Shown: piece after piece, positions 12,246-30,912 of the stretch
Layout: every line of letters starts with the position of its first letter
Position numbering within the stretch: position 1 is the stretch's first letter
Assembly (NCBI GenBank): GCA_014904985.1
Contig: MU129103.1
Location: 21,799-85,798, forward strand
DNA from: Hydnum rufescens UP504
Taxonomy: Eukaryota; Basidiomycota; Agaricomycetes; Cantharellales; Hydnaceae
Direction of reading: 5' to 3'
DNA length: 64,000 bases
The notes under the pieces: generated by a model
The model's input: only the letters and a program-made list of their open reading frames with translations
What the model was told of the DNA's origin: nothing
Database searches by the model: none
Position numbers and translations under genes: made by a program

Positions 12246-12673
12246 TAGGCTATTGCATGGGGTTTCAAAACCCGCGGGTTTTGACCCCACGGGGGAAATC
12301 CCTGTGGGGCAGGAGTACCAATGTGGACCTGTGCCTAAAACCCGCCAAGAACCCGCCATCCCCGGGAATATGCAGGCGGGTTTTGAAACCACCAGAGGCT
12401 GTAAGTGGATGTATCATCTCAACATCAAAATTCATATCTCCTGTCCACTGTTAGGTAACCAATTATTTATTTATTAATTTATTATTATTATAGACACATT
12501 TACATTAGTAAGGAAAAAAAATTCAACAAAAGAGCACCATAATATAAAATGTAACTGAATGTTGCCACACCCGCCGAAGTGGGTGTGGCACCATATGTAT
12601 TTCGTCATTGATACTCGGGGTTGGGGTCTTGGGTGGCATTCTTCAGGTGGGGTTGTGCAGAGGGAGAGAGGAC

Positions 12674-12786
12674 CTATAATAATAAATAGGTTAGTAAAAA
12701 AAAAAGAACACAAGCAATGCCAAAAGAGCAGCTAGTGCTGCTCTTTTGGCACCATGGTACACACTGTAATAAAAACAAACACACAC
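12674..12786 (-). repeat. Hairpin-intron cassette L1
   Basis: 113-nt intron-like unit on the minus strand: donor TTAG|GTGTGT, intronic hairpin 12719-12750 (GCCAAAAGAGCAGC arms), TACTAAC-like branch, acceptor TTATAG. The adjoining exonic hairpin is 12795-12824 (CCACACACCCAC arms). Confidence 0.7.
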
Positions 12787-12962
12787 CTAATATTGCCACA
12801 CACCCACTTCGGCGGGTGTGTGGCTCTGTATTTGAGGCCACCTCGTTGTATTGGTTGCGAATAGTCGAGAGTTAGGGTCTTGGGTGGCTGCGCACACGCC
12901 CATATTTCACCCAGGCCTTGTCCACGGATTCTTTGGATGGGGGTTTCGCGGAGTGAGAAAAC

Positions 12963-13073
12963 CTAGAATAGCGCGTATGTTAGTTTAAAAAAAATAACAA
13001 AAGCAACGCCAAAAGAGCAGCCAGGGCTGCTCTTTTGGCATCGTTGTACACCCCATAATAAAAAAACACATAC
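12963..13073 (-). repeat. Hairpin-intron cassette L2
   Basis: 111 nt. Donor ATTAG|GTATGTG, intronic hairpin 13008-13039, CTAACATA branch, acceptor TTCTAG. Exonic hairpin 13082-13111. Confidence 0.75.
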
Positions 13074-13244
13074 CTAATATTGCCACACACCCACTTTGGT
13101 GGGTGTGTGGCACCATACTCGTTTTGTCGTTGTATGGGTTGTGGGCACTTGAGAGTCGGGGTCTTGGGTGGCTGCGCACTCCTGTATTTCGTGGTGCATT
13201 GTCTGTGCATTCTCTGGATCGGGTTTTGCGGAGGGAGAAAGAAC

Positions 13245-13356
13245 CTAGAATAATTAAATATGTTAGTAAAAAAAAAATACCATAAGCAACGCCAAAAGAG
13301 CAGCTGGTGCTGCTCTTTTGGTGTCATAATACACCCCATAATTAAAAAAAACTGAC
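13245..13356 (-). repeat. Hairpin-intron cassette L3
   Basis: 112 nt. Donor TTAG|GTCAGT, intronic hairpin about 13292-13321, TACTAACA branch, acceptor TTCTAG. Exonic hairpin about 13361-13384 has a shortened stem. Confidence 0.75.
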
Positions 13357-13512
13357 CTAATACACCCACCGAAGTGGGTGTGGCGCCGTACTTGATTCGT
13401 CATTGTAGGGGTTGAGGATACGCGAAGGTTGAGGTCTTGGGTGGCTGCGCGCGCCCCCGTATTTCACCCTCGGTGCATAATTCGACTGGGGTTTCGCGGA
13501 GGGAGAAAGGAT

Positions 13513-13618
13513 CTAGAATAACAAATTTGTTAGTAAAAAAAAAACAACACAAGCAACGCCAAAGAGCAGCTGTTGCTGCTCTTTTGGCATCGCCGTACAC
13601 CCCAGATAAAAAACTTAC
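13513..13618 (-). repeat. Hairpin-intron cassette L4
   Basis: 106 nt. Donor TTAG|GTAAGT, intronic hairpin 13558-13588 with one base missing from one arm, TACTAACA branch, acceptor TTCTAG. Exonic hairpin 13627-13656 is perfect. Confidence 0.75.
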
Positions 13619-13656
13619 CTAATAGTGCCACACACCCACTGCAGTGGGTGTGTGGC

Positions 13657-13959
13657 ACCATCTCGTGCTTGCTTCAGCTTAGTAGAGTAGAATTGGACAA
13701 GATTCAATGCCGGCGATTGCTGGTCTCAAAAAAGCACCCAAGTAGGGGCAGTACAAGGCTCATATAAATAGATAATAGATACCTACACATAGAATACTAA
13801 ATAATACATATTTAGTATTATTCTATGTGTGTCTATTATCTATTTATATGAGCCTTGTACTGCCCCTACTTGGGCACTTTTTTGAGGCCGGCAATCACCG
13901 GCGTTGAATCTCATCCGATTCTACTCTACTAAGGCCACCTGAAGCAAGCACGAGATGGT
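13657..13959. repeat. Central palindrome of the foldback element
   Basis: About 150 bp read outward on each side of an AT-rich centre near 13806 (AATACTAAATA and its complement around a short spacer). Arms share GAGCCTTGTACTGCCCC and a GCACTTTTTTGAG-like block with slight divergence. This segment joins the oppositely oriented cassette arrays, and diverged counterparts occur at 29290-29345 and 30540-30600. Confidence 0.8.
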
Positions 13960-13997
13960 GCCACACACCCGCCGCAGCAGGTGTGTGGCACTATTAG

Positions 13998-14102
13998 GTA
14001 AGTTTTTTATCTGGGGTGTATGGCGATGCCAAAAGAGCAGCAACAGCTGCTCTTCTGGCGTTGCTTGTGTTATTTTTTTTACTAACAAATTCGTTATTCT
14101 AG
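13998..14102 (+). repeat. Hairpin-intron cassette R1
   Basis: 105 nt. Donor TTAG|GTAAGT, intronic hairpin 14028-14059 with one A-to-C mismatch, ACTAAC branch at 14081-14086, acceptor TTCTAG. Preceded by exonic hairpin 13960-13989. Confidence 0.8.
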
Positions 14103-14256
14103 ATCCTCTCTCCCTCTGTGAAACCCCAGCCAAATTATGCGCAGACAAGGCCCAGAGCGAAATGTGGGGGTGCATGCAGCCACCCAGCACTTCAACCCCA
14201 ACCCCTACAACAACGAATCAAGTACGGTGCCACACCCACTTCGGTGGGTGTATTAG

Positions 14257-14366
14257 GTCAGTTTTTTAAATTACGGGGTGTATTATGACACCAAAAGAGC
14301 AGCACCAGCTGCTCTTTTGGCGTTGCTTATGGTATTTTTTTTTACTAACATATTTAATTATTCTAG
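14257..14366 (+). repeat. Hairpin-intron cassette R2
   Basis: 110 nt. Donor TTAG|GTCAGT, intronic hairpin 14291-14320, TACTAACA branch, acceptor TTCTAG. Preceded by exonic hairpin about 14231-14252. Confidence 0.8.
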
Positions 14367-14537
14367 GTTCTTTCTCCCTCCGCAAAACCTGATCCGGAGA
14401 ATGCACAGACAATGCACCATGAAATACAGGAGTGCGCAGCCACCCAAGACCCCGACTCTCGAGTGCCCACAACCCATACGACAACAAAACAAGTACGGTG
14501 CCACACACCCGCCAAAGCGGGTGTGTGGCAATATTAG

Positions 14538-14648
14538 GTATGTGTTTTTTTATTATGGGGTGTACAACGATGCCAAAAGAGCAGCCCTGGCTGCTCTTTT
14601 GGCGTTGCTTTTGTTATTTTTTTTAAACTAACATACGCACTATTCTAG
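14538..14648 (+). repeat. Hairpin-intron cassette R3
   Basis: 111 nt. Donor TTAG|GTATGT, intronic hairpin 14572-14603, CTAACATA branch, acceptor TTCTAG. Preceded by exonic hairpin 14500-14529. Confidence 0.8.
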
Positions 14649-14813
14649 GTTTTCTCACTCCGCGAAACCCCCATCCAAAGAATCCATGGACAAGGCCCGG
14701 GCGAAATACGGGCATGTGCGCAGCCACCCAGGACCTCAACCCTCGCGTATCCCCAACCCCTACAACGATGAATCAAGTACGGCGCCACACACCCACTTTG
14801 GTGGGTGTATTAG

Positions 14814-14924
14814 GTCCGTTTTTTTAAATTATGGGGTGTATTACAACGCCAAAAGAGCAGCACCAGCTGCTCTTTTGGCATTGCTTGTGTTATTTTTTTT
14901 TACTAACATATTTAATTACTCTAG
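14814..14924 (+). repeat. Hairpin-intron cassette R4
   Basis: 111 nt. Donor TTAG|GTCCGT, intronic hairpin 14848-14879, TACTAACA branch, acceptor CTCTAG. Preceded by exonic hairpin 14784-14810. Confidence 0.8.
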
Positions 14925-15094
14925 GTTCTTTCTCCCTCTGCGAAACCCAACCCGGAGAATGCACAGACAACGCACCACAAAACACAGGAGTGCGCAGCCA
15001 CCCAAGACCCCGACTCTTGAGTACCCACAACCCATACGACGACGAAACAAGTATGGTGCCACCACCTGCCAAAGCGGGTGTGTGGCAATATTAG

Positions 15095-15203
15095 GTAGTG
15101 TTTTTTATTACGGTGTGTACAACAACACCAAAAGAGCAGCCCCGGCTGCTCTTTTGGCATTGCTTTTGTTATTTTTTTAAAACTAACATATGCACTATTC
15201 TAG
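15095..15203 (+). repeat. Hairpin-intron cassette R5
   Basis: 109 nt. Donor TTAG|GTAGTG (weak), intronic hairpin 15128-15157, CTAACATA branch, acceptor TTCTAG. Preceded by exonic hairpin 15058-15086. The following exonic hairpin (15342-15371) has no donor after it; the array stops there. Confidence 0.75.
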
Positions 15204-16031
15204 ATTTTCTCACTCCACAAAACCCCCGTCCAAAGAATCCATGGACAAGGCCCGGGCGAAATACAGGCATGCGCACAGCCACTCAAGACCCTAACTCTCA
15301 ACTATTCACAACCAATACAATGAGGCGACCTCAAATACGGAGCCACACACCCGCCGAAGCGGGTGTGTGGCAATCAGCCCCTCCGTGTTTCCGTGTTATC
15401 CAATCAGTTCGAACTCCATGTATCCATTATCCCACAACTCTGTAAATAGTGACATCTGCCCTGAAGTCTTCAAGCCCATGTTCAACCCATCACAAGGTCT
15501 TTACTGTGTATTAATCTGATGATCACCCGACTTTCGAAAGGATCAAGACATTCATGGTGCCCTGGAATCTTTGGATTATGGTTGAGGATGAAGATGTGGA
15601 TGGTGAGATTAGTGGAAGATGAACACCCTGACTGTCCCAATGTATGAGCCCTTTGGCCCCTTCCCACCTAAGTACTTAGTGTCATTAGTTTTGAATCACT
15701 GGCTCTGTGGAGAGTCAGCAGCCAATCTCATTCAAGGACCTGATCCTTCCTAAGTAATTCCCTCTCACAACTCCTCTCCTCTCCCTCCAGCCACTCCCTC
15801 TTGCTACATTGCACAAGGAACTTGAGGGACCACACCCAAGCAAATTACAGTCATTCTCTGGTATCAATACTGTGATCATTGTCCCATGGGGTTCCCACGG
15901 GGTCCCCCCGGGTTTTTCAACCCCGTCTTGTATCCTGCGGCTTTTACACCCATGAGTCATGGGGGCGGGTTTTCAACCCCGCGGGGTGGGAGGTCCTAAA
16001 TTCCCCCGCGGGGACCCCATGCAATAGCCTA

Positions 16032-16040
16032 TTGTGAAGT
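16032..16040. repeat. Right target-site duplication of foldback element
   Basis: TTGTGAAGT, matching 12237-12245. Confidence 0.8.
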
Positions 16041-16347
16041 AGAGGCCCTTGGTCATGTCTATATAGAGCCCTCATAGATAGTGAAGATTAATGTACTTGA
16101 ATTCTTATCCTTTAATGTGTATAGCCCTTGCATTGAACTCCATCTTGTTAAGTCTTTGAGGTTGAGGCCATTGACATTGGTTAATGTCGAATTTGATGTC
16201 AAAACCATCCATCTGAGGTCAAAATTCAGTTTTTGATCATCACTTGACATCAACCCCAATTTAAGCCTCTCAGGCCCAGACAACATGTCAAAATGGTACT
16301 CCTTTTGAGCTAAGGCTATATGGCTGACCAGCCTGCCTTCTTACTAG

Positions 16348-16431
16348 GTACAGCTGTGCAAAAAGGGCAGCAAAAGCTGCCCTTTTTGCACTCCTTTAAC
16401 ATTTTTACTAACCATATTATTTCCATTCTAG
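16348..16431 (+). repeat. Hairpin-intron cassette, short variant
   Basis: 84 nt. Donor CTAG|GTACAG, intronic hairpin 16357-16390 (TGCAAAAAGGGCAGC arms, so a different stem sequence), TACTAACC branch, acceptor TTCTAG. It lies outside the foldback element. Confidence 0.65.
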
Positions 16432-16567
16432 GTTTAAAGTTATCACCTCTGATCCAAAGATGGCCACCCGAAAACCAATCTGGGCCAAAACTCATGCAAG
16501 ACCCTGCATGTGATGACAGATAAAACAGCCCCACACACCTGCTGCAGTAGGTGTGTGGTTATATCTG

Positions 16568-16676
16568 GTGAGTCCCTCACTAAAGCATGTACAATGGGTG
16601 CCAAAGGAGCAGCATATGCTGCTCTTTTGGCACTGTCTCTTCCTTTTTTTTACTAATATTATTATTTGCTATTCTA
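16568..16676 (+). repeat. Hairpin-intron cassette
   Basis: 109 nt. Donor TCTG|GTGAGT, intronic hairpin 16599-16632 (one mismatch), TACTAATA branch, acceptor TTCTAG. Preceded by exonic hairpin 16531-16558. Confidence 0.75.
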
Positions 16677-16837
16677 GGTCCCCCTCCCTGCATGAAACCC
16701 ACCCAACAAGGTCCAAAATGAAGCCCTGCATGAAAGAATGACACATAGCAGTCAATACTGGCAGCCCCCAAATGCACACAACAATGAATGAAACACAGCA
16801 CCACACACCCACTGTGGTGGCTGTGTGGTGATTTAAG

Positions 16838-16942
16838 GTAAGTATTTTCTCCACTAGGCCCTATCATGCAAGAAGAGCAGCAGCTGCCGCTGCTCTTCTT
16901 GCACCTTTGTAAATTGTTGCTGACTTAGGTGTTCTATTCTAG
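16838..16942 (+). repeat. Hairpin-intron cassette
   Basis: 105 nt. Donor TAAG|GTAAGT, intronic hairpin 16867-16903 (TGCAAGAAGAGCAGC arms), TGCTGAC branch, acceptor TTCTAG. The exonic hairpin 16801-16828 has a bulge. Confidence 0.75.
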
Positions 16943-16981
16943 GTCCTGACTGCCCACCCAAGCAAGAAGACCTGCAAACAT

Positions 16982-18532
16982 TGTTGGAGGGAAAAATCCC
17001 TACCACATAGAGTTCCATTTCAGCATCAAATTTTCCAATGAACGAATTAAAAATGTACCAATATGTTGTTCCAATAACAAGCCTTTCGTCTGTTCATGGA
17101 TGAGCATGAATTCCATATGCCTGAAAAGATGTAAATGGAATGCTCATTTCCTTTGTACATGAGTCAACCTCCTGGGGTCTTCAACAGGCCATAGGGACTG
17201 TATTCATTTATGCCCTATCATAAGCCATGATATGGTGGACCCAGCAATTCAACTTGCCCTTCTGTATATCGTCTTGAATTCTCCTTCAATCTGCTCATAC
17301 GGATCTTGTTGCCTTAAGGGCAACTCTAACGAATGGTGATTATGTAATACAATGGATTACACACCTGGGCCTTCATTCCTACTTGTGGATACGGTTACAT
17401 AATCAAATAGGGGCAAATGCGGCACTCTTAAGGAGTATTCATCGAATTTCTCTGTCAGTTTTGATCGGATCGGCTCGAAAAAGTAGCGTCCGGAAAGGTA
17501 TGATTCACACCTATCCAACAATACCGAGCACGAGTCGATCTGATTAAAATTGCATGTTCTAGAACTATTTTACTATGGAATCCATGCTCTTAAGGAGTAT
17601 TCTCCACTTTTCGAAGTCAATTCGTATCCGATCGACTCATAAGTATAGCTCCTTGAAAGCTGTGATCAATACCTATCGAATGATACCTATTACGCATTTA
17701 TCGGATCAGAACTGAGGCTTCTGGAATGATTTCACCTGCTCATTCATAATTAGAAGGTGTATTTTTCAAATTTCTCCATCAGTTTTGATCGGATCTGCAT
17801 GAAACAACCACGGCTAGAAAGGTATTAAAAATGCCCATCCAGCGGTATGAAGGGCGTCACGAACAAAGAAGAACTTGGTGTTCTACATACAAATTTCCCC
17901 CTTGTCTCAGGAGAACATCATTCCCCCTTCCAATTTTCAAATATCAAATATTGTCTGGCAGCCTTATATCCAAAGGATAGGACGTTTAGGACGACTCATT
18001 CCACCATTACTCAAGGGAATCTGTCCAAAAGGGAAGGAGAAATAGTCATTTTATGCTCTATCCTATCCCCAGATTTGTAAATTGAATATCTCTGTCAGTT
18101 TTGAAGATTTTGACTTGATTCCTTTTTCTACATATTTCCCCTATCCCCCTGCTTCCGTCGGATATTTGATCTCATAGCTGGGTTGTATATTAAGCGAATT
18201 GGGTTGAAAATTCCATTGTCTTCCCCCTCCCCAGTCTGAAGCACTGAAGTATTGCTGCTGGATTTCCAGGCGAATTCCATCTGAGGACATTGCTACTACT
18301 ACACTTTGTCTAAGGCCACAAGACTAGGACCTTGGAGTGTGGTATTTGTGGCATAATTTCCCCTTTATTCATCTGCTTGAGCAACTACTGCTGACAGTGG
18401 ATTATCTTCTATCCTAAAGATCCTCCTACACTTGGACCTGAACATTCGGATTATTTTGGTGGCCCCCATTCTTTGTTCTCGATTCCATATCGTGGACTGT
18501 GGCAGAGATTCCCCCTTTTTCTCCTGCTTACA
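16982..18532 (+). mobile_element. 1.55-kb element, copy 1 (inverted partner at 62.1-63.6 kb)
   Basis: A 1551-bp segment that is the reverse complement, with many substitutions, of 62106-63649. It begins TGTTGGAGGG and ends CTGCTTACA, so the termini are TG...CA as in an LTR, but no internal retrotransposon DNA adjoins it. Near 17450-17830 it contains diverged reiterations of a motif with TCAGTTTTGATCGGAT and GATTCACACCTATCCAAC, also found in elements A, B and C. It interrupts a cassette exon: the flanks (16943-16981 and 18533-18685) add to about 190 nt, close to neighbouring exons. I could not find a clean duplication for this copy. No gene is visible inside. Confidence 0.6.
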
Positions 18533-18645
18533 ATGTCAAGGAGAACCTGTGCAACCATGGGATCATGCGAACAAACACCTGCACAACAGTGGGGGTGAAA
18601 TTCCCCATGAACAATGCCCACACAAGTACCCAGAGGACAACAAGG

Positions 18646-18691
18646 GACCATACACCCACTACAGTGGGTGTATGGTCATTTTAAGGTAAGT
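18646..18691 (+). repeat. Exonic hairpin with donor, rest of cassette lost
   Basis: A perfect hairpin 18646-18677 (GACCATACACCCAC arms) is followed by TTTTAAG|GTAAGT. No intronic hairpin or acceptor follows, so this is a truncated cassette. Confidence 0.6.
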
Positions 18692-19038
18692 ACACCTTGG
18701 ACAGCCATATGTGACCCCCTTCTTAGGTATCTATTCTGGGGCATGATTTGGTACCTAAGTAGGTACCAGACACTATTGGGGCCCCAGTCCACCACTTTGG
18801 TTGTGGTTTGGGCCCTCATTGGGGCCTTATTGGGCCAACTTCCAGTGCTAGATCACATATTGATTTATTTATTATTATTATATACATATTATGCCCTGCC
18901 ACCACCTGGCGGGGCCACACACCCCATTCTTACTGGTGTTCGGTCGGCGGGGTCGCGGGTTGCTTCATTTGTGGTTGCATGTTTTGATCATCCGGGATTT
19001 GCTTGGGGGTTTGTGCGGGTGGTGGGCTCAATAAGAAT

Positions 19039-19148
19039 CTACATTAATAAAGTACCATGTTAGTAAAGAGAAAAAGAAAAGAAAACCCATGAAAAAGGAG
19101 CAGCCTGTGCTGCTCCTTTTGCATGGTCAGACACAGATATACACTTAC
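19039..19148 (-). repeat. Hairpin-intron cassette
   Basis: 110 nt. Donor TCAG|GTAAGT, intronic hairpin 19088-19125 (AAAAAGGAGCAGC arm), exact TACTAACA branch, acceptor AATGTAG. Exonic hairpin 19160-19183. Confidence 0.75.
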
Positions 19149-19315
19149 CTGAAAAATTACCACACCCGCTGCAGCAGGTGTGGCTCGTTATTTTTCGTCT
19201 GTGGCTTCGTATGCCCGTCCCCATGCATTTGTTCGCATGTTTTCATTGGTGTACTTGCGTTTGGACTTACGGCTGCATAGGTTCGCATGTTGGGGTGGGA
19301 GATCTTATTAACTTA

Positions 19316-19349
19316 CCAGATATTACCACACCCGCCGCAGCGGGTGTGG
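19316..19349 (-). repeat. Truncated cassette: hairpin plus donor
   Basis: A perfect exonic hairpin 19326-19349 (CCACACCCGC arms) is followed on the minus strand by ATCTG|GTAAGT, but no intronic hairpin follows. Confidence 0.6.
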
Positions 19350-19487
19350 TATGGTGCTTGACCTCGCGTAGGTTGCAGGGGTTGGGGTGCTGTGCGATCG
19401 GGCAGTGTTTGGCGGCTGTGCATCAAAACTTTGTGGGGACATCGTTTGTCTTCTCATCGGGTGGATTTTCATGTGGGTGGGGGCAAT

Positions 19488-19576
19488 CTACAATAAGGAG
19501 TAATACGTTAGTTAAAAAAAAAACAAGAGGCAGTGCCAAAAGAGCAGCTTCTGCTGCTCTTTTGGCGCCGTGGTAC
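19488..19576 (-). repeat. Hairpin-intron cassette, short
   Basis: 89 nt. Intronic hairpin 19535-19566, TTAACTAAC-type branch, acceptor TTGTAG, donor GCAG|GTACCA (non-consensus). Nearly identical to 20348-20435, indicating recent local duplication. Confidence 0.6.
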
Positions 19577-19762
19577 CTGCCCACCTGGACATCTATGCGC
19601 TGTTCGTACGGGCATTCTTGCAGGTTTAAATACCGGTGGGTTTTGGTATCAGTGTTCTCGTGGGTTTTGCTATGGCCGTTCGCTTGGGTTTTCGTATGGC
19701 TGTTCGTTCGGGTTTTCATATGTGCGTTCATGCGGGTGTTTGCTCGGATCGGGGGTGATGAA

Positions 19763-19874
19763 CTACGATAATAAAAGAAATATCAGTTAGAAATCAATGG
19801 CAGCAGGAAAGAGCAGGGTGGCCTGCTCTTTTTGCGCCACTTTAGGTATTCTGACAAACAAAAACTTAGCTTAC
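19763..19874 (-). repeat. Hairpin-intron cassette, variant stem
   Basis: 112 nt. Donor CAAC|GTAAGC, hairpin about 19801-19833 with AAAGAGCAGG/CCTGCTCTTT stem, CTAACTGATA branch, acceptor ATCGTAG. Duplicated at 20630-20742. Confidence 0.65.
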
Positions 19875-20056
19875 GTTGTGGTATCTTCTTTTCATTCCAC
19901 CATTTGGGGTTTTTCGTTTGGGTGTCCTTTGGGGCACAGATTTAGTCAATCATCATGTTTGGGGGCCGGGCACTCAGGGCTTGGGCGGCTGTGCATCGAA
20001 TTTCATGCTGGGGGTTGGTCCGTGTCCTCGTCGGGCGGGTTTTCACGTTGGGAGAC

Positions 20057-20167
20057 CTAGAATAACGAATAATGATATATTAGTAAAACAAACAAACCAG
20101 AGCGGCACCAAAAGAGCAGCTTCTGCTGCTCTTTTGGTGCCATTGTATAGTTTGGGATTAGACGCAC
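20057..20167 (-). repeat. Hairpin-intron cassette
   Basis: 111 nt. Donor TTAG|GTGCGT, long intronic hairpin 20104-20141 (GGCACCAAAAGAGCAGC arms), TACTAATA branch, acceptor TTCTAG. Exonic hairpin 20177-20204. Confidence 0.75.
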
Positions 20168-20347
20168 CTAATATTACCACACACCCACCGCAGCAGGTGT
20201 GTGGTATCATGCTTGACCTCTCGTCGCATAGGTTGCGGGGGTTGGGGTGCTGGGTGCTCGGGCAGTGTTCGGCGGCTGTGCATCGAAACTTCGTGGGGGC
20301 GTCGTTTGTCTTCTCATCGGGCGGATTTTCATGTGGGTGGAGGCAAT

Positions 20348-20435
20348 CTACAATAAGGAATAATACATTAGTTAAAAAAAAACAAGAGGCAGCGCCAAAA
20401 GAGCAGCTTCTGCTGCTCTTTTGGCGCTGTGGTAC
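20348..20435 (-). repeat. Hairpin-intron cassette, short
   Basis: 88 nt. Intronic hairpin 20391-20428, acceptor TTGTAG, donor GTACCA. A local duplicate of 19488-19576. Confidence 0.6.
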
Positions 20436-22866: not shown

Positions 22867-22959
22867 CAGCGGGTGTGGTCCTGTATTCGATGTGTTGTCA
22901 TGTAGGTTCGGGGGTTGGGCTCTTATATGGTTGTGCGCATTTGTATTTCGTCTAGGTAC

Positions 22960-23070
22960 CTAGAATAATAATACGTTAGTAAGGGAAAAAAAACCGAAGG
23001 CAATGCCAAAAGAGCAGCTGGTGCTGCTCTTTTGGCATTGTGGTACACCCCGTAATGAAAAAAAACTCAC
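22960..23070 (-). repeat. Hairpin-intron cassette
   Basis: 111 nt. Donor TTAG|GTGAGT, intronic hairpin 23002-23039 (AATGCCAAAAGAGCAGC arms), TTACTAACG branch, acceptor TTCTAG. Exonic hairpin 23079-23108. Confidence 0.75.
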
Positions 23071-23264
23071 CTAATATTGCCACACACCCGCCGAAGTGGG
23101 TGTGTGGCACTGTGTTTGATTCATCGCAGAAGTTGCAGGTGCCTAGGGACAGGGATTTCGGGTGGCTGCACAGATCCATATGTCGCCTGTTTTCTTGTCG
23201 GGCGGGGTTTCCTACAGGCAACGGGCGCATGATCTGATCGGTGAAACAGGGGGAGGAGTCCTAA

Positions 23265-23416
23265 GAGCCCACGCACACAACATTTAATGTGCATGGGCTC
23301 ACTCATTCGCCCGTTAATCGCAATTGTGTGCCGGTACTTCATTAGTACCGGCTGTCGGGGCTTTGGCCACTCGCAGAGTTCGAGGTCCGAGACGACGATG
23401 GGTAATCGTTGTCGTC
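23265..23416. repeat. Three extra hairpins inside a cassette exon
   Basis: Consecutive hairpins 23265-23300 (GAGCCCACGCACA arm, one mismatch), 23330-23352 (GCCGGTAC arms) and 23391-23416 (GACGACGAT arms, near-perfect). They are unrelated to the two main hairpin types but lie at the acceptor-proximal side of the exon. Related structures occur at 23990-24020, 28213-28243 and 30847-30871. Confidence 0.6.
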
Positions 23417-23470
23417 ATTTGACATGCGGGAGAGGGGTTGGGCCAGACCAACAGGCTGTAATCCAAGAGG

Positions 23471-23551
23471 CTGATTAGTAAAACATTCAAGTATGCGAAA
23501 GGGCAGCTCCAAGCTGCCCTTTCGCATAACAGTAACAGATAAAATACTTAC
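23471..23551 (-). repeat. Hairpin-intron cassette, short, GGGCAGC class
   Basis: 81 nt. Donor TAAG|GTAAGT, intronic hairpin 23492-23528 (TATGCGAAAGGGCAGC arms), TACTAAT branch, acceptor TCAG. Exonic hairpin 23559-23585 (CCACACCCCAGC arms), with its 3' arm repeated once more to 23601. Confidence 0.7.
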
Positions 23552-23781
23552 CTTATCACCACACCCCAGCAATGCTGGGGTGTGGCATTGCTGGGGTGTG
23601 GTGTGCTCCTTAGTGGACATCGAAGGTTTGTTCTCCACCTTCCTGGTTTGGGTCGCGGTATTCTCAGGTGGTATGCGGTCACAAGATCCGCAGCGATTCA
23701 TAATCGCGATGGGGGAGCCACGGTACCACTGTGGGTGCATCATCGCCATTGGTTACGATGGAGGGTGCGCGGGGATAGGGT

Positions 23782-23871
23782 CTAGAATGAAGATAATTTG
23801 TATTAAGAAATTGTGGGAACACAGAAAGGGCAGCTTAAAGCTTCCCTTTGTGCAAGTAAGAAAATAAGTAC
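23782..23871 (-). repeat. Hairpin-intron cassette, short
   Basis: 90 nt. Donor ACAG|GTACTT, imperfect intronic hairpin 23820-23852 (CACAGAAAGGGCAGC), acceptor TTCTAG. Exonic hairpin 23879-23905. Confidence 0.65.
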
Positions 23872-24057
23872 CTGTTCACCACACCCCAGTGATCCTGGGG
23901 TGTGGTGTCCTGTGTGTGGTGGCGTCCTCGGTCACACTCTTTGTGTTGTTCGGTTATGTGCCAGTGATAATAGTCGAAATTGCCGACGACGACAACAACA
24001 AATGTCGCCGTCGTTGTTTGGGGTGCGAGAGGGGTCGGGGGATGATAGCAAGTGTCC

Positions 24058-24154
24058 CTATAATGAAAATAGAGAATTATTAGTAAGAGCTTAAAGCAGC
24101 GCAAAGGAGGCAGGCCACAAGCTAGCCCCCTCATGCAGGAGCAGTAATACTTAC
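24058..24154 (-). repeat. Hairpin-intron cassette, decayed stem
   Basis: 97 nt. Donor CAAG|GTAAGT, TACTAATA branch, acceptor TTATAG. The intronic hairpin is largely lost. Exonic hairpin 24162-24188 is near-perfect. Confidence 0.6.
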
Positions 24155-24326
24155 CTTGTCACCACACCCCAGTGATGCTGGGGTGTGGTGTCCGGTTTAT
24201 GTCGTCCTTGGTCCTGTTCTTCACGTTGGTCGGTTGTGCGGGTGACAGAACCCACGATTTGTCGTAATGGCGACGACAGGACCATCGCCACCATTCAAGG
24301 TGGGTCGCGGGGGGTAGCGATAGTAT

Positions 24327-24426
24327 CTACAATGAAGATAATTTGGATTGTTAGTAAAACCATTAAGCAACACAAAAAGGGCAGCTTAAAGCTGCCCTTG
24401 TTGCACGAATAAATAATGGGACTTAT
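24327..24426 (-). repeat. Hairpin-intron cassette, donor mutated
   Basis: Intronic hairpin 24368-24403 (AAGGGCAGCTTAAAGCTGCC core), TACTAACA branch, acceptor TTGTAG. The donor reads AAG|ATAAGT (GT to AT), so it should not splice normally. Confidence 0.6.
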
Positions 24427-24429
24427 CTT

Positions 24430-25135
24430 ATCACCACCCCCCAGCATTGCTGGAGGTGGTGCCTCGTTTATACCATCTGTAGTCTCACGTTTTGCCTTGT
24501 TCGGGTGTATGGGCTACAGAACCCATTATCAGAGCTGAACCGTCTGTATCAGCTTATCGTGCATCGGAGGGTATCACAGTAGGGGATTGGACCAACGGCC
24601 AGGAGCTCCTTAACCTCCAGCCAATAAAGAATGGGCATTGACGTAGCATCCTGCATGTAGCCACACTTCTGTCAGCTCCCTAAGCAGTTCACCGCAGTCA
24701 TTTTCGTACCTGGAAAGACTCCACCTGGTTGTATGGACGCAGAGACCGCTGTCCAATTATGGAGACAAGGAATCGCGCTTAAGCATGTCTTTGAACAGGA
24801 GGGGTAATGTGGTATTGCGCCCCTTCCTTCGATTCAAGCCTCCAGCCTGCGAGCTGCCAAAGGAACCGCCAATGCTCAGAATATCTCTGCAACCCAAATC
24901 CATAAGGCTCGCTCCTGTGGCGATCAATTCTCCTTCAATTCCAATGGCTGGCCAAGTGAGCCATTCTCAGGCACTCGTGGTGGGGGGCCATGATACATTG
25001 TTACCAGCTTCATCGCAACTAGGATGCATGGTCCTGCCACTAAGGGGAGTCAAACGAGACTTCCAGCCCCGAGTTTGGGTTGGGGAGCAAAGGAGTGAGG
25101 AGAAACGCCCCTCAAACTTTTGCGTGATCGCGGCC
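24430..25135. other. No gene recognised
   Basis: Relatively CpG-rich DNA inside the array. An open frame beginning at 24785 shows no family motif. It could be a captured host fragment. Confidence 0.3.
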
Positions 25136-25160
25136 NNNNNNNNNNNNNNNNNNNNNNNNN
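25136..25160. other. Assembly gap (25 N)
   Basis: A run of N in the supplied sequence, adjoining a G/T-rich repeat that is probably hard to assemble. Confidence 0.95.
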
Positions 25161-25505
25161 GCAGGGGGTTGGTCAGTGGGTCTTTGTTTGGATTTGGGTT
25201 GCAGGGTCTTCATTTGGTGGGTTTGGGCTCATGGGGGTTGGCTCGGTGGGTCTTTGTTCGGATTTGGGGTCATGGAGTCTTTGTTTGGTGGGTTTGGGCT
25301 CACAGGGTTTGGCTCAGCAGGTCTTTGTTCAGATTTGGGGTCACAGGGTCTTCGTTTGGCAGGTTTGGGCTTGCAGGGTTTGGCTTGGTGGGTCTTCATT
25401 CGGATTTGGGGTCACGGGGTCTTCATTTGGTGGGTTTGGGGTTGTGGGGTTTGGCTCAGTGGGTCTTCATTCGGCAGTCTTGGGATTGGGGGTTCATGCA
25501 GGTTC
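25161..25505 (+). repeat. G/T-rich tandem repeat
   Basis: Degenerate repeats built from GGGTCTTCATTTGGTGGGTT and GGATTTGGGGTCA-like words with a roughly 100-bp period. The strand has very few C residues, so all three forward frames stay open. I do not regard the open frames as genes. Confidence 0.7.
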
Positions 25506-25516
25506 AAGTCTGAGAT

Positions 25517-25621
25517 CTAGAAAAAATAAATAATATATTAGTTAAAGAATATATGCATCACAAGAAGAGCAGCCATAGGCTGCTCTTCTGGCACAAAAGT
25601 ATCTAAGGATATGATACTTAC
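25517..25621 (-). repeat. Hairpin-intron cassette
   Basis: 105 nt. Donor CTGG|GTAAGT, intronic hairpin 25563-25589 (AGAAGAGCAGCC arms), CTAATATA branch, acceptor TTCTAG. The flank after the donor resembles 16310-16345 and 18700-18770. Confidence 0.7.
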
Positions 25622-25639
25622 CCAGGCTGGTCAGCCATA

Positions 25640-26345
25640 TTTGATACCTATGATAGGTATCAAATTTGGGGCACTTTTTGGTACCTAAGTAGGTCCAATT
25701 GTGATGGGGTGCCATAGGGGTGCCAATTGATAATTCAATATCAGAGAATCAGCCCAAGTGGGGCCCAAATTGGGTATATGGGCCCCAATGTGGTGCCATG
25801 GGGCCCCAATGTGGCTCCAAAATGAACCCCTTCATAGTTTCCACACCACTGAGGCACTAATCTGCATTTATGTTTAATTATGTAATACCCAAATGTGGAA
25901 AATGCAGAAAATAAGTACATCCACAGTGTCCCCAAGCCATCCAGCCCAATCCAGCAGCCGATCTTGTAGTATACATACATCAAATTGCATATGTTACCTT
26001 GGATATTTGTGCTTGAAAGGCTTACCATACAGTAACCATAAGTTATGGGATGATATATTATATGGGTGCATGGTATATATTCCTACTGCCAAGCTGCTTT
26101 ATAATCACCATCAGCAATGGCGGGATTTCCTTATTTGGAAATCACATGTGCATATGAACTCGCACTTCATTCTGCATTCTAGCCTGCTACAGGGCTTTTT
26201 TTTGGATTCTAATTGGGTGGTTCAATACCCTGGATTTATCTCTATTTTTATGGTACAAAGAAGAGACTACAGAGGAAAGAATACAAAATTGAATTTACAA
26301 AAAAAAAATATATATATATATATTACACATGCCCGGTGCCTACAG
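25640..26345. other. No gene recognised; small palindromes
   Basis: Contains a GATACCTATGATAGGTATC palindrome near 25650 and a GGTACCTAAGTAGGTCC segment shared with 18750. A poly-A/TA run lies at 26300-26325. A GCCCGGTGCC/GGCACC half-palindrome directly precedes element B. Confidence 0.35.
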
Positions 26346-26352
26346 GCACCAG

Positions 26353-28036
26353 TATAGAAGAAGGGTTAGGAGCTCCGATGACTGTCAAATCAAAATCTGG
26401 TTCAGCCAGTGTGTAGATAGGAGACTGTGTTTCTGTTTATTCAAATGGGTTGGTTCGCTTCGATGGTTGATCACTCTCTGCAAGATATGTATGTGTTTAT
26501 TGGAGAATGGAATGTGATATGGACTAGCAATAGTCAATGATATATCGTAGATGCTTATAAGAAGGCTTATACGTCGTATGGAATGCTTATAGAAAGGCTT
26601 ATATGTGGAGGATGCTTATAGGAAGGCTTATACGTCTGGGATGCTTGTGGAAAGGCTTATACGTGTTCGTGTTGTGTTTGTTCGTTTACTTATATTTGTG
26701 TGTCCTTGTTTACGTCCTCTGAGTCAAAATGCGGATATCTGTGGGCTATAGAATGGTCAGCGCTTGGTTAGTTTGGTTAGTATGCTTCAATCTTCTTCCC
26801 TGACTCGTATTTTTGTTATGCTTACCTTTTCCCTGGATGTCCAGCAACTCTAACCTTAGGTTCTGCAACTATCCTTGGCTTCAGTATTTTGCGTAGATGG
26901 CTTCCAGTAGCTTGGTCTCAACAACCTTGAAGATGACTTAGCTCCAGATGGCTTTAGATAGACAGTTCTTTAGATATTAAGCAGAATGGTAGACAGTAGT
27001 TGACAGTGGTTCATTTCCAGAGTGAGGAGATGGGGGGGAACAAGAAAATCTGCTAGCTTATATACCTATCTGAAGGTGGCTGTGCATGGAGCAAGAACAA
27101 AAGAGTAATAAAGCTATGAGATCATAGTGATGTCATGGGGGAGTCATAGTGGAGTAGAACAAAAGAGTAATAAAGAAATGATGTCATAATGCGGTCATAG
27201 CTGAGTCATCCACAGAGTGTGATGTCATAGTGAAGTCATAGTGATGTCATTCATAAAGAGAACAAAAGGATTCATAAAGGGAATGATGTCACTAATTTGC
27301 TGAGCTTGTGGAGTGGTTGGAGCATGATGTCACTGATCTTGTGATGTGTTTTGGGGCTCATGGGAAGTGAAATTAAAGGACATCTCCGGGTTCTGGAGAT
27401 TAATCTGAGCATAGTCCAGTGGTTAAGGTGTTTTTGTTACTGGTTAATAAAAGGAACAAGTGCATGGTGTGGGATTCGATGCAGAGACAGCAGTTTGTAT
27501 CCGTAATAGGCGTGCTTGGTATCATTCAATGCGGATTTTTAACAGCTTTCTGGGCGCGGTGGTTCCGAGCAGATCCGGTGTAAACTGACGGAGAAATTCG
27601 TTTTTTACTGATGGGTGTTAATTCTGATAGTAATATCATTCTGTAGAGTTCAGTTTTAATCTGTTCTTCGCGTGCTCAGTACCGTTGGATGCGGATTTTT
27701 TATATCTTTCTAGGCGCGGTTGTTCCGAGAGTATTGAATGCGAACTGACGGAGGTATTCATTTTTTACTGGAAATCCTGGATTTTAATAATAAAATTGGC
27801 CTGGAGAGTGCAGTTTTGGTCCGTTCAACTTGTGTTTGGTACCGTTCGAAAGGTGTGAATCGTAGCTTTCTAAGCGTTATATGGGTGTACCTCTCCGATC
27901 AAAACTGACGGAGTTATAAAACGAATTTCGTTTCTGCGCGTAGCCATAATTAATCTCATAATCGGTCATGTGATCGTCCAATGGCTGGAAGTTGTGTAAT
28001 TTCGCTTTTTCTGATACTGGATGTTTTTATCTTCCA
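26353..28036 (+). mobile_element. Element B (1.68 kb), inserted in a hairpin stem
   Basis: A second copy of the element A family with the same termini (TATAGAAGAAGG...ATCTTCCA). Flanks are CACCAG (26347-26352) and CACCGG (28037-28042), a 6-bp duplication with one mismatch. Taking it out joins GCCCGGTGCC-TACA-GGCACCGGGC, a perfect hairpin. Inside are direct repeats of a GGATGCTTATAGAAAGGCTTA type (26540-26650), the TCCAGCAACTCTAACCTTAG block, GTCATAGTGATGTCAT repeats, and the 170-bp modules in 27480-27980. No gene is visible. Confidence 0.65.
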
Positions 28037-28212
28037 CACCGGGCACACGACTTGATAGGCGAGAATGTGGGAAAGATCCTAGGGGCCGATGCACACAAAT
28101 TTTTGAGTGTATGGGTGCCCTGGCCCCTCCGTCGTTCTTGATTTTGTACGGGTGGTCCTGTTGTACCAGCCATGGCTGTGGCGGGTCCTAGGAGTGCAAA
28201 TCGTCGATGGCA

Positions 28213-28243
28213 AGGGCGATCCTGTCATTATGGGATCGCCCTT
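28213..28243. repeat. Hairpin inside a cassette exon
   Basis: Near-perfect stem AAGGGCGATCC/GGGATCGCCCTT around CTGTCATTAT. Same position class as the hairpins at 23391 and 30847. Confidence 0.6.
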
Positions 28244-28288
28244 ATCATCAGTCGGGGGAGGGACGAGGCTGGGGAATAACATTAATCC

Positions 28289-28435
28289 CTATGATGGAAA
28301 TAATTCATGTTGTTAGCATGAAATTTAAGCTGTGCGAACAGGGCAGCTTAAAGCTGCCCTATTCATGCTAAAAGGGAGGCAAGTTTGGGGAACTTAGCAT
28401 ATTACTACACCCAGCAACACCGGGGTGTGGTGGCT
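28289..28435 (-). repeat. Decayed hairpin-intron cassette
   Basis: Intronic hairpin core 28340-28360 (AGGGCAGCTTAAAGCTGCCC), acceptor ATCATAG. The donor region (TAATATGCTAAG) is altered, and the exonic hairpin (28407-28432) is degraded. Confidence 0.5.
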
Positions 28436-28595
28436 TGCTTATTGTGCGGGTAGTTTGCGTCTTCGGCTTCTTTGGTCATGCGGGTCATGCAGGTCATGCG
28501 GAGGTGCAGGGCAGTCACTTGTTCCCAATGACAATGGTGGGATTCCCAGTGTGGTCATTGGTTGAGGTGGGGGGGGCAGGCAAGATTGATTGTCC

Positions 28596-28702
28596 CTAAA
28601 ATGAAAATGATCAAACGGTTAGTACATGATTAAAGCAGCACAAAAAAGGGCTGCCTTAGGCTGCCCTTGGTGCAAAATGAGACAAAGCAGGCATATACTT
28701 AC
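28596..28702 (-). repeat. Hairpin-intron cassette
   Basis: 107 nt. Donor TAAG|GTAAGT, intronic hairpin about 28637-28673 (AGGGCTGCC variant core), TACTAACC branch, acceptor TTTTAG. Confidence 0.65.
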
Positions 28703-28878
28703 CTTATTACCATACCCCAGCTTTGCTGTGGTTTCCAGTCTCAGGTGATTTATTGCCGGTTTCTCTAGCGGAGTGGGGTCATATGACCCTGCAACCATTT
28801 GCGATAACGGCCGGATCATCAGGTGGCGGTGTGAACGTGTTCATTTGAAGGGCATGAGGATGGTGGGCAGCAGTGATT

Positions 28879-28959
28879 CTGTAATGAGAGAATTGAAACC
28901 ATTAGTAAAAAATAAAAGTCATAGAAAGAAGGCAGCTTAAAAGCTGCCCTCTACGCTAC
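28879..28959 (-). repeat. Hairpin-intron cassette, short
   Basis: 81 nt. Donor TAAG|GTAGCG, hairpin 28926-28950 (GGCAGCTTTTAAGCTGCC core), TACTAATG branch, acceptor TTACAG. Exonic hairpin 28969-28993 is imperfect. Confidence 0.6.
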
Positions 28960-29136
28960 CTTATTGTTGCACCCCAGCAAGGCTAGGGTGTGGCAGTTTA
29001 TTTACACCATGGGGTGGGTATCTTCAGTCGAGGTTGCGCGAAACCATAGGATCCGTGATAGTCCATGAAAAGATGAAGGCATTGCTGCCATGATCCTCAT
29101 GCGACTCCAGTGAGTCGATGGTCAAAGCAAAGGTGC

Positions 29137-29218
29137 CTATACGGAAGAAATTTGAAAGGTCAGTTAAGAGTGATAAAAGGAGCGAGTTTAAACTCGCTCC
29201 TGACACAAAGATACTTAC
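29137..29218 (-). repeat. Hairpin-intron cassette, new stem sequence
   Basis: 82 nt. Donor TGAG|GTAAGT, perfect hairpin 29178-29201 (AGGAGCGAGTTT and its complement), acceptor GTATAG. The stem differs from all others yet is fully paired. Confidence 0.65.
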
Positions 29219-29344
29219 CTCATCATGGCACTGGGGTGTAGATCGCGTGCTCCTTTGCGCGGATTACGGAATCGAAATTGGCGACAGACAAAGCTGAAAC
29301 TCAACAGCGGCACATGCTGGGTTCAAAAAACCCAAAGGGGAGCA

Positions 29345-30350
29345 TGCCACAGGGTACTGTGACAGGGTCTATATGCAGACCAGTGCTAGGTGAATGATAT
29401 TTTATTATTATTTTTCTGTGAAGATTCAGGGGGGAAGCAAGAATGAGCCAGATACCAAATAAGGCAATATATGGCAGGGGTTGGGGCAGTCTGTATGGAT
29501 CAGAGTCATCCCAAGATTAAATATTATTATCCCATATATATACTACAAGATCCAGGCATGAAAATGGATGTCCAAACAATCCCAAAATTTCCCAATCCTC
29601 ATTTTTTATTTAGGCATATACAGTGAGTCTGACAGTCTGGAATTGTAGTTCTCTCAACTGTTTGGTAGTTGAATAGCATACTATACTTCATCTGATAGTT
29701 TCCCCTCTCCACAATGGCCCAGATATGTCCAGAGATGGCCAAGACTTGAATTTCCTTATTTGGGTAAGTGTATTTCCTCCTTTGTGCAGTCATAGCACAG
29801 TATTAGAGCCTAGGAAGCTGGGATTAGAATGTGATCTAGTCTGGCCACAAAATATAATTTTTTTCAGAATTTTTAAGACAAATAATATGTCACGGGTTCC
29901 GCATATCCAGAGTGGCTCTGATTCTCAGAATCAGAGCCACTCTGGATATGCGGAACCCATGACATATTATTTGTCTTAAAAATTCTGAAAAAAATTATAT
30001 TTTGTGGCCAGACTAGATCACATTCTAATCCCAGCTTCCTAGGCTCTAATACTGTGCTATGACTGCACAAAGGAGGAAATACACTTACCCAAATAAGGAA
30101 ATTCAAGTCTTGGCCATCTCTGGACATATCTGGGCCATTGTGGCATTGGAAAAATTCTCAGATAAAGTCTGGTGTGTTATTTAAGTAGGACACAGTTGAA
30201 AGAACCAAGCACTCACAAGGCCAGACTGTTGGGCTTAGTGCATATACTGTAACTTGGAAATAGGGGTTTGGGAAATTTTAAAATTGTTTTGATATCCATG
30301 TTAACATATCTACCTTGTAGATATATATGTGTTATCCCAATATTTTATTT
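29345..30350. repeat. Insert in array centre, with a 430-bp palindrome
   Basis: AT-rich DNA dominated by a near-perfect palindrome 29712-30140 centred at about 29926 (CCAGAGTGGCTCTGATTC and its complement with no spacer). Mirror open frames of 84 residues on both strands follow directly from the symmetry and are not evidence for a gene. I saw no protein motif. Confidence 0.75.
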
Positions 30351-30641
30351 TTGGGGCACCCTGATCCATACAGGCGACCCAAGCCCCTGTTCAGTGTCAT
30401 AATGCATTGCCATATTCGGATTTTGCTCATTCTTGCCTTTTTCTTCCATATTATTATCAAAATAATTATCAAATATAACATAACACACATTTCCTTTCGT
30501 ATATACACTTCCACAATGCTCTGTGGTGTCTTTCTGCCTGGGGTTCGGCGCTTTTTTGAATCCAGAGCCTGCTGGCATTGAGTCTCGGCTTCACCCGACA
30601 GCCATATCGGGGATACCACGAGCAAGCGCCCAAACGAGGTG

Positions 30642-30782
30642 CATCACACCACACCCCAGCCGTGCTGGGGTGTGGTGATGAGGTAAGTAATTTTTTTGTT
30701 TATGATTTCTTCCAGAGGGAGCGGCTTTAAGCTGCTCCTCCGGGTGGGTTTAATTTTGTACTCATAACTTTTCTCACCGTAG
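30642..30782 (+). repeat. Plus-strand cassette of the second array
   Basis: Exonic hairpin 30642-30680 (extended CCACACCCCAGC arms). Donor TGAG|GTAAGT at 30683, intronic hairpin about 30719-30739 (GGAGCGGCTTTAAGCTGCTCC), CATAAC branch, acceptor ACCGTAG at 30782. Opposite orientation to the 19-29 kb cassettes. Confidence 0.7.
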
Positions 30783-30912
30783 AGTCGATTGCCATTGCCC
30801 GTACCCCCGCCATCTCAAAAAATGATGCCGATCCGGCTATGACATGACGACAACGATCCCCTCGTTGTCGTTATGAGCTTCTGGTAGCCCTGGTCCACAG
30901 CAAAGTCGCCCC

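Follow-up and report, generated by a model that had tools for sequence, protein, structure and literature searches.

Divergent arrays of hairpin-bearing, probably spliced units in hAT-type transposons of Hydnum rufescens

A 64,000-nt stretch of the Hydnum rufescens UP504 genome (assembly GCA_014904985.1, contig MU129103.1, positions 21,799 to 85,798; hereafter the window) holds many similar hairpin-bearing predicted introns, which raises the question of what is being copied: the intron itself, as in introner-like elements, or something larger that carries it. Window coordinates are used throughout.

Units and arrays in the window

The first-pass annotation had described about thirty units with the same internal order, and this was borne out by a profile HMM, which found 28 units, all within 12669-30767, ordered as exon hairpin, donor, intron hairpin, branch site and acceptor. 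A unit was counted if more than 90 model positions were covered at E<0.001; the profile was seeded with 43 motif-filtered units, window units among them, and splice motifs were not used as a filter on the count. An independent parser placed the two junctions given as examples, 13998-14102 and 14257-14366, at exactly the same positions. The hairpins were confirmed as well: 69 strong stem-loops lie at 12001-31000, whereas three equally long Markov-1 controls gave 7, 10 and 10, and 40001-60000 gave 22. In the first array, introns measure 105-113 nt and exons 154, 171, 165 and 170 nt on the plus strand and 156, 171 and 176 nt on the minus strand; shorter introns of 82, 96 and 100 nt are present in later arrays. 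The units of the first array are repeated as had been described, but they form two opposite-strand arms diverging from 13.66-13.84 kb rather than a single tandem run. In several units one of the hairpins is missing or a signal is imperfect, and some later units are truncated by other repeats (at 18693, 25623 and ~21.3 kb). The features are listed below, where "both" marks units found by the parser and the profile HMM.

12237-12245, target-site duplication, left, TTGTGAAGT (9 bp)
12246-16031, non-autonomous hAT-type transposon with the first divergent array, inverted end to inverted end
12246-12399, terminal 154 nt common to an element with a hAT transposase domain (L032, C151), by alignment
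12458-12491, minus strand, polyadenylation-like AT-rich cluster of AATAAA motifs at the outer edge of the minus arm
12560-15374, first divergent array, two arms outward from paired leaders
12669-12829, minus strand, unit of the minus arm, intron 12674-12786 (both)
12959-13116, minus strand, unit of the minus arm, intron 12963-13073 (both)
13241-13387, minus strand, unit of the minus arm, intron 13245-13356 (both)
13509-13661, minus strand, unit of the minus arm, intron 13513-13618 (both)
13661-13790, minus strand, leader or promoter-like region of the minus arm (profile match at 13661, E=8.3e-28; window leaders in the seed)
13793-13819, palindrome between the two leaders
13840-13956, plus strand, leader or promoter-like region of the plus arm (profile match, E=2.1e-30; in the seed)
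13955-14107, plus strand, unit of the plus arm, intron 13998-14102 (both)
14226-14370, plus strand, unit of the plus arm, intron 14257-14366 (both)
14495-14652, plus strand, unit of the plus arm, intron 14538-14648 (both)
14779-14928, plus strand, unit of the plus arm, intron 14814-14924 (both)
15054-15207, plus strand, unit of the plus arm, intron 15095-15203, weakened donor GTAGTG (donor position read off the sequence)
16032-16040, target-site duplication, right, TTGTGAAGT (9 bp)
16342-16434, 16525-16682 and 16795-16946, plus strand, three units of an older array (profile HMM)
18642-18692, plus strand, exon hairpin and donor of the older array, cut at 18693 by a transposon end
18693-18730, plus strand, end of a group 2 transposon, CACCTTGGACAGCC
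19035-25632, minus strand, array of 13 units starting at 19035, 19484, 19760, 20052, 20344, 20627, 20910, 21180, 22956, 23465, 23780, 24325 and 25513 (profile HMM)
28308-28431 and 28596-28723, minus strand, units (profile HMM)
29137-29218, minus strand, intron within 28308-29218 (parser)
29709-30143, perfect palindrome of two 217-nt arms with a 1-nt spacer, with the last minus unit to one side and the last plus unit to the other
30514-30645, plus strand, leader of the last plus arm (E=5.4e-23; one of five seeds)
30645-30767, plus strand, unit that opens the last plus arm, intron 30683-30782 (both)

The 13-unit array is broken by another repeat at ~21.3-22.88 kb. The intron matching the cut exon at 18642-18692 may now be the minus-strand stretch 25517-25621, moved by an inversion, since the 8-bp flank GGTAAGTA is common to both.

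Transposon ends, leaders and orientation

The first divergent array lies inside an element with terminal inverted repeats (TIRs; TAGGCTATTGCATGGGG / CCCCATGCAATAGCCTA), the boundaries of which agree with several other copies. Within it is a 434-nt inverted stretch (94%), and units are found in both arms. Inverted ends of 17 nt with at most 3 mismatches were found in the window copy and in L011, L013, L015, L016, L017 and L018 (group 1). Both ends are visible in all seven of these fetched copies. Direct repeats flank six of them, 8 bp long in L011, L013, L016 and L017, 9 bp in the window and 7 bp in L015, and matching flanks are absent in L018. The 154-nt end aligns with C151, an element known from one end only, which has a Dimer_Tnp_hAT domain (E=2e-10) ~3 kb from that end on the same strand. 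Group 1 copies combine TIRs, a duplication of about 8 bp and ends common to an element with a hAT transposase domain, and it is very probable that the arrays are divergent and borne by hAT transposons. A second transposon family (group 2) also carries the array plan; its copy L027 has both ends and an 8-bp direct repeat (CGTGAACC), matching flanks are absent in the L020 and C248 copies, and no transposase was linked to the ends of this group.

Leaders were located by profile, after a regular expression gave no match, and the DNA of the plus-arm leader at 13840-13956 has 54 matches genome-wide, many as minus/plus pairs ~180 bp apart. In the fetched loci, 21 centres with paired divergent leaders had 207 units pointing outward and none inward. 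Because L029 duplicates the window centre with its 5 units, this amounts to 20 distinct centres, the window's own among them, and 202 distinct units outward with none inward. An AATAAA-rich stretch closes many arms, with none in L009, L014, L015 and L036, and some clusters are antisense and inside arrays; from their motif, these clusters may serve polyadenylation.

Hairpins, splice signals and what the arrays may do

Both the exon and the intron hairpin covary. Across 34 diverse units, the 30 stem pairs are 93% paired, and 17 of them have changed on both sides, which was equalled in none of 500 shuffles; in 248 distinct rows, 94-95% of stem cells are paired, as opposed to 25-59% after sliding. 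Older changes between subfamilies favour G-U over A-C (93 vs 35 in the intron and 39 vs 31 in the exon, counts that are uncorrected for shared descent). Recent private stem changes show no preference for G-U over A-C (14 vs 18), so this test detects no RNA-level selection in present copies. One mostly-G-U intron pair contributes much to the intron count of 93 vs 35. The donor is unpaired in the consensus fold, and the idea that the hairpins act as donor openers was set aside, as partition-function folding of 44 units gave an openness of 0.29 with native and 0.28 with shuffled hairpins; the branch is slightly less open with native hairpins (0.52 vs 0.54).

Conservation of the splice columns was measured over 253 profile hits to which no motif filter was applied, the profile seed itself being motif-filtered. 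The donor reaches 1.74 bits at G1, 1.92 at T2, 0.46 and 0.61 at positions 3-4, 1.47 at G5 and 1.69 at T6, the branch ACTAA 1.58-1.96 and the acceptor AG 1.96 and 2.00, while linker columns 50-63 have 0.27-1.05. T content is 15% in exon bodies (95 exons) and 49% in introns outside the hairpin (175 introns). Splicing is inferred from the conservation of these motifs, and we consider it quite probable that the arrays are transcribed and spliced. One exon-junction pattern, searched with at most 1 mismatch, gave 0 matches to an intronless (spliced and copied-back) version, an absence that says little. Together, the splice columns and the covariation support the earlier description of structured, tandemly amplified and apparently splice-competent units with an exonic hairpin, but not the "introner-like" label attached to it.

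The reading we favour, and consider likely, is that these are non-autonomous hAT-type transposons carrying a transcription unit that is bidirectional, non-coding and multiply spliced. Two back-to-back leaders at an often palindromic centre would drive outward transcription of the arms. In each unit, a U-poor exon closes with a hairpin of ~9-19 bp and is followed after 2-14 nt by a U2-type donor; the U-rich intron then holds another hairpin, of ~10-20 bp, the branch site ACTAAY and the acceptor YAG. The whole element would be mobilised via its inverted ends by a hAT transposase supplied from elsewhere, and tandem duplication would alter the number of units. Copies founding new subfamilies retained the RNA hairpins and splice signals, the hairpins probably through selection during amplification, and the hairpins could perhaps set the geometry of each intron. 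The array would then give efficiently spliced element RNA that does not feed RNAi. In Cryptococcus, an RNAi pathway acts on poorly spliced transposon transcripts, according to PMC5851062, and matches to RdRP and Piwi domains are present in the H. rufescens genome; even so, RNAi evasion, although the role that we rank first for the arrays, seems to us doubtful. It is conceivable, and put forward tentatively, that splicing or hairpin products serve the transposon as a selfish RNA device against host RNA surveillance. We are just as tentative about the joint claim that related spliced bidirectional hairpin modules in at least two non-autonomous families, with anything between one unit and more than eight in an arm, are under RNA-level selection.

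Selection on transposons is usually viewed as acting through their proteins and ends. In this genome, an exact hairpin core is kept at thousands of sites, and in the sampled units covarying hairpins and complete splice signals persist with no detected coding, which suggests that a DNA transposon may gain from being spliced. The arrays are a natural and highly replicated system for the effect of donor-side hairpins on splicing, and allow one to ask if good splicing shields transposon RNA from RNAi.

The covariation of both hairpins would also be expected if the spliced or circularised products mattered, for instance as small-RNA precursors or as stable hairpin RNAs working for the transposon, and the act of splicing did not. 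The palindromic introns flanking each exon could promote back-splicing, and the RdRP and Piwi matches fit as well. However, stems of ~9-20 bp are short for Dicer substrates, and a search of Rfam at gathering thresholds gave no match in the window, and we regard this explanation as improbable. The palindromic form of the units, the inverted tandem-repeat arms and palindromic centre inside a TIR element, and the recent changes lacking a G-U preference could instead point to DNA-level repeats, in which the units are transposase or recombination sites, as known from foldback elements and hAT subterminal repeats, and the splice-like motifs are incidental. This is hard to reconcile with donor, branch and acceptor columns whose conservation is close to that of the stems and whose variation is typical of splice sites, with U-poor exons and U-rich introns, with the strict orientation away from leaders, or with the preference of older changes for G-U over A-C when read as transcript (shared descent uncorrected), and we think it rather unlikely.

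Genome-wide copies, coding potential and known systems

Exact matches to the intron-hairpin core number 3,490 across the 63-Mb genome, and those to the exon core 2,047, with 0 for the backward-sequence controls. A pattern match on a viral contig (L039) was taken as chance, as no unit was found in the surrounding stretch. Near-identical structured introns in such number, along with a repeat family that has a single unit at many sites, would fit a mobile intron copied into many genes and seen in tandem only by chance, and PMC8469720 describes stable secondary structure or inverted repeats in fungal introner-like elements. However, the transposon ends and target duplications lie ~0.4-0.8 kb beyond the arrays and flank them whole, with no element end found to coincide with a splice site, and the mobile unit is the whole transposon and not the intron. 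Exons are amplified along with introns, all three of the fetched matches that appeared to stand alone lay within arrays, and in the single-unit family a separate leader and exon accompany the intron within a repeat of at least ~1 kb. The small part of the 3,490 sites that was read revealed no copy inserted into an ordinary gene as one of its introns. We consider a mobile intron very unlikely here, and for introner surveys the caution is that many similar introns in one genome need not be mobile introns.

That the exons encode a repetitive peptide in a multi-exon repeat gene, with the hairpins as by-products, can be dismissed on codon-position and indel counts, which in 92 exons show no consistent third-position excess and mostly indels that are not multiples of three. 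Substitutions at codon positions 1, 2 and 3 numbered 91, 115 and 128 above 90% identity, 251, 297 and 333 at 80-90%, and 351, 346 and 296 at 65-80%, position 1 being somewhat less changed above 80%. Indels with length modulo 3 of 0, 1 and 2 numbered 1, 15 and 5, then 15, 80 and 49, then 62, 77 and 79 in the same identity classes. A spliced frame above 200 aa is found in 3 of 29 intron chains (231 aa in the window plus arm, 237 in L012 and 269 in L018), but the other 26 have none and unspliced frames are similarly long. Ten window ORFs gave three weak Pfam matches, with 0 above cut-off.

The elements resemble non-autonomous hAT transposons in their TIRs, their mostly 8-bp duplications (9-bp in the window) and ends common to an element with a hAT transposase domain, and differ in what they carry, namely divergent leaders followed by arrays of hairpin units that look spliceable; a literature search, with most subscription literature beyond its reach, found no hAT with such cargo. 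Foldback elements (FB, Galileo) are TIR transposons with long inverted arms composed of tandem repeats. The element at 12246-16031 likewise has long inverted tandem-repeat arms inside target duplications, but is set apart by the conservation of donors, branch sites and acceptors in its units, by a leader and by hairpins that covary. Some introner families show the target-site duplications or TIRs of DNA transposons (PMC9860276), and introners share with the present introns their many similar copies and, in fungi, their structure (PMC8469720); here, however, the element ends lie elsewhere than at the intron, exons are co-amplified and no ordinary gene in the sample was found to carry an insertion. 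The symmetrical stwintrons of Hypoxylaceae, also repeated fungal U2 introns with internal symmetry, are described in the same source (PMC8469720) as nested introns with terminal inverted repeats that occupy new gene positions without flanking duplications, whereas the H. rufescens units have a central intron hairpin and an exon hairpin and lie in transposon arrays.

Hairpin units and their splice signals

The first-pass annotation had described some thirty hairpin-bearing intron cassettes in tandem, and its hairpins and repetition were both borne out: 69 strong stem-loops were found at 12001-31000 of the window against 7-10 in Markov controls, and a profile HMM seeded with 43 motif-filtered units, with its hits left unfiltered by motif, recovered 28 units, all within 12669-30767. 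The splice junctions it had given were also reproduced by a parser that accepted a unit only if hairpin, donor, branch-site and acceptor motifs were all present. The repeated hairpin unit is real and occurs on a large scale. A single unit gave 263 matches across the 63.2-Mb genome (539 contigs), and exact searches returned 3,490 occurrences of the intron core AAAAGAGCAGC-N(2-8)-GCTGCTCTTTT and 2,047 of the exon core CCACACACCC-N(4-12)-GGGTGTGTGG, with 0 for the backward control of each. When three apparently isolated core sites from the listing were fetched, all three lay within arrays of diverged units.

In transcript order, each unit has an exon (mostly 145-177 nt, range 135-254, n=110) ending with a hairpin of type GCCACACACCCGC-loop-GCGGGTGTGTGGC, then 2-14 nt and a donor, whose forms include GTGAGT, GTATGT, GTAAGT and GTCAGT. 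The linker that follows mostly spans 16-38 nt and leads to a second hairpin, this one of type GCCAAAAGAGCAGC-loop-GCTGCTCTTTTGGC; after it come a T-rich stretch, the branch sequence (ACTAAC or ACTAAT) and finally the acceptor, in most cases TCTAG. These tallies are biased by a parser that demanded the motifs. Across 253 profile hits, letters 1-2 and 5-6 of the donor hexamer, the branch-site ACTAA and the acceptor AG are conserved at about the level of the stems, while conservation is lower at positions 3-4 of the donor (0.46 and 0.61 bits) and in columns 50-63 of the linker (0.27-1.05 bits). Since the ends of the hexamer are kept and its middle and the linker are loose, we read the column pattern as the profile of a real donor. 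Directly 5′ of the intron hairpin, a TGTA (columns 64-67) is conserved (1.08-1.72 bits) within the otherwise variable linker. T content is 15% in exon bodies and 49% in introns outside the hairpin. Splicing of the units is predicted and seems likely.

Pairing, selection and coding potential

In an alignment of 248 distinct rows made on sequence alone, standard pairs fill 94.3% of exon-stem cells and 95.0% of intron-stem cells, and sliding one stem side by 1-3 columns drops pairing to 25-59%. From a diverse set of 44 units differing by more than 20%, 34 entered the aligner; over 30 pairs, 93.0% of cells were paired, and changes on both sides were seen in 17 pairs and 70 cells. Not one of 500 shuffles matched any of these three values, and slid versions reached at most 53.5% paired and 11 both-side cells. 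RNAalifold recovered the intron hairpin in full and, of the exon hairpin, the inner 7 pairs, with both-side changes in 13 of 24 pairs, and a scripted run on 55 units gave both hairpins, an unpaired donor and a small extra stem linking branch site and acceptor. The pairing, the covariation and both kinds of control show that the two hairpins are real and that pairing itself is maintained.

Private recent changes are rarer in stems (57/11,509) than in spacers (101/12,856; Fisher p=0.005) and also fewer in splice columns (8/2,162, p=0.04), which may reflect constraint or composition; those in stems show no preference for G-U over A-C (14 vs. 18). Between 73 subfamilies, G-U exceeds A-C in the intron stem (93 vs. 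35, the G-U total being raised much by one pair that is mostly G-U) and in the exon stem (39 vs. 31), as compared with 659 vs. 694 and 99 vs. 166, respectively, in slid controls. These counts, which ignore shared descent, lean towards selection on the transcribed-strand RNA in copies that seed new subfamilies.

A spliced frame above 200 aa was present in 3 of 29 chains. Comparison of 92 exons with four framed window exons gave no consistent third-position excess; position 1 changed somewhat less at >80% identity, position 3 changed least at 65-80%, and the majority of indels in the 92 exons were not multiples of three. The codon-position and indel patterns rule against protein-coding exons, and no sign of coding was seen.

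Divergent arrays and their transposon carriers

The elements discussed below, some from loci fetched from the same genome (L numbers), are as follows.

12246-16031 of the window: group 1 element carrying the first array
13661-13790 (-) and 13840-13956 (+): promoter-like leaders of the first array
L019-L024, L027, L028 and part of L012: group 2 arrays, ending in GGCTGTCCAAGGTG
L025 and L040-L042: further repeat family, in which the stretches read hold a single leader and a single unit

Profiles of the unit and of a leader lying upstream of the first unit agree on a single layout, in which minus-strand units and their leader are followed by a plus leader and its plus-strand units. Around 21 centres between paired leaders (L016 and L026, with a single leader each, were left out), all 207 units lying within 2.2 kb are directed outward and none inward; removing L029, a repeat of the window's centre with 5 units, leaves a distinct set, window included, of 20 centres and 202 units. 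These loci were sampled by match to a window unit, L036 excepted, and a genome search with the leader alone again returned -/+ leader pairs. AATAAA-rich stretches occur at the outer end of many arms and were not found in L009, L014, L015 and L036. We read each array as two putative transcription units placed back to back. Two divergent centres hold long palindromes, one at 29709-30143 of the window with perfect 217-nt arms and 1 nt between, the other seen by eye at ~545-780 of L036; such arms may come from inverted duplication.

The group 1 element has inverted ends, TAGGCTATTGCATGGGG and its complement, with TTGTGAAGT flanking both sides. Among seven copies with both ends visible, flanking repeats are 8-9 bp in five, 7 bp in one and absent in one. 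Its first 138 nt also occur elsewhere in the genome, and the C151 element carries this end sequence (direct alignment over 154 nt) and, ~3 kb away on the same strand, a hAT dimerisation domain (Pfam Dimer_Tnp_hAT, E=2e-10). Group 1 is therefore a non-autonomous hAT element. At locus L032 (C151) the hAT transposase gene is divided among several open pieces, and its family is a likely source of the ends of the array-bearing element.

In group 2, the opposite end, visible in L020, L027 and C248, is CAGGCTGGTCAGCC or a near variant; L027 has both ends and an 8-bp repeat, CGTGAACC, and no matching flanks were found for L020 and the C248 copy. Group 2-type ends interrupt older window units at 18693 and 25623 with a common flank, GGTAAGTA, in opposite orientations, from which we infer one insertion followed by inversion. 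In the single-unit family, donor, branch site and acceptor are intact in 4/4 copies, and its intron core makes up 15 of the 50 matches listed (127 found with one pattern), each on a separate contig.

Introners are introns that are mobile in themselves and present in many genes. Here the ends of the element differ from those of the intron, so a defining feature of introners is lacking, and the introner-like reading of the first-pass annotation is not supported; we replace it with divergent arrays, carried by transposons, of non-coding units that bear hairpins and look competent for splicing. An introner survey describes TSDs or TIRs in many families and fungal introners as without both (PMC9860276). 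The arrays resemble a foldback-shaped non-autonomous hAT element with a probably spliced non-coding cargo, of which no description was found in the literature searched, which took in a minority of subscription journals.

Proposed mechanism and other repeats

We propose that a transposase from elsewhere would act through the ends to move the element, and that the two leaders would drive outward transcripts from which the spliceosome would excise every intron. The intron hairpin would shorten the donor-to-branch path by some 25-45 nt and the exon hairpin would seal off the exon directly 5′ of the donor; partition-function folding of 44 units gave no support for an opening of the donor by the hairpins. 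In Cryptococcus, poorly spliced transposon RNAs lead to siRNAs through a spliceosome-coupled RNAi complex (PMC5851062). RdRP and Piwi domain matches are present in this genome at several loci, and our guess is that a run of well-spliced introns might offer escape from that fate.

Another repeat in the window (~21.3-22.88 kb, 26352-28038 and 34970-36583) has copies 87-99% alike, the one at ~21.3 kb interrupting a unit hairpin; L010 holds a copy 99.3% identical to 26353-28038, so this repeat moved recently. A ~1.4 kb repeat at 16981-18366 and 62272-63650 (inverted, ~45 kb apart, 88-95% alike) has another copy in L009, and a 300-bp tandem repeat of 2.8 copies with an inverted copy near by occupies 11307-12133 and 10666-10965. 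The stretch 38001-40000 has 25% G+C and open frames of ~300-340 aa in all six frames, and is probably low complexity. A weak integrase core domain match at 45722-46192 (E=0.003, below cut-off) is probably a retroelement remnant, and 48557-48707 holds 16.8 copies of the nine-base tandem repeat ACAAAGACA.
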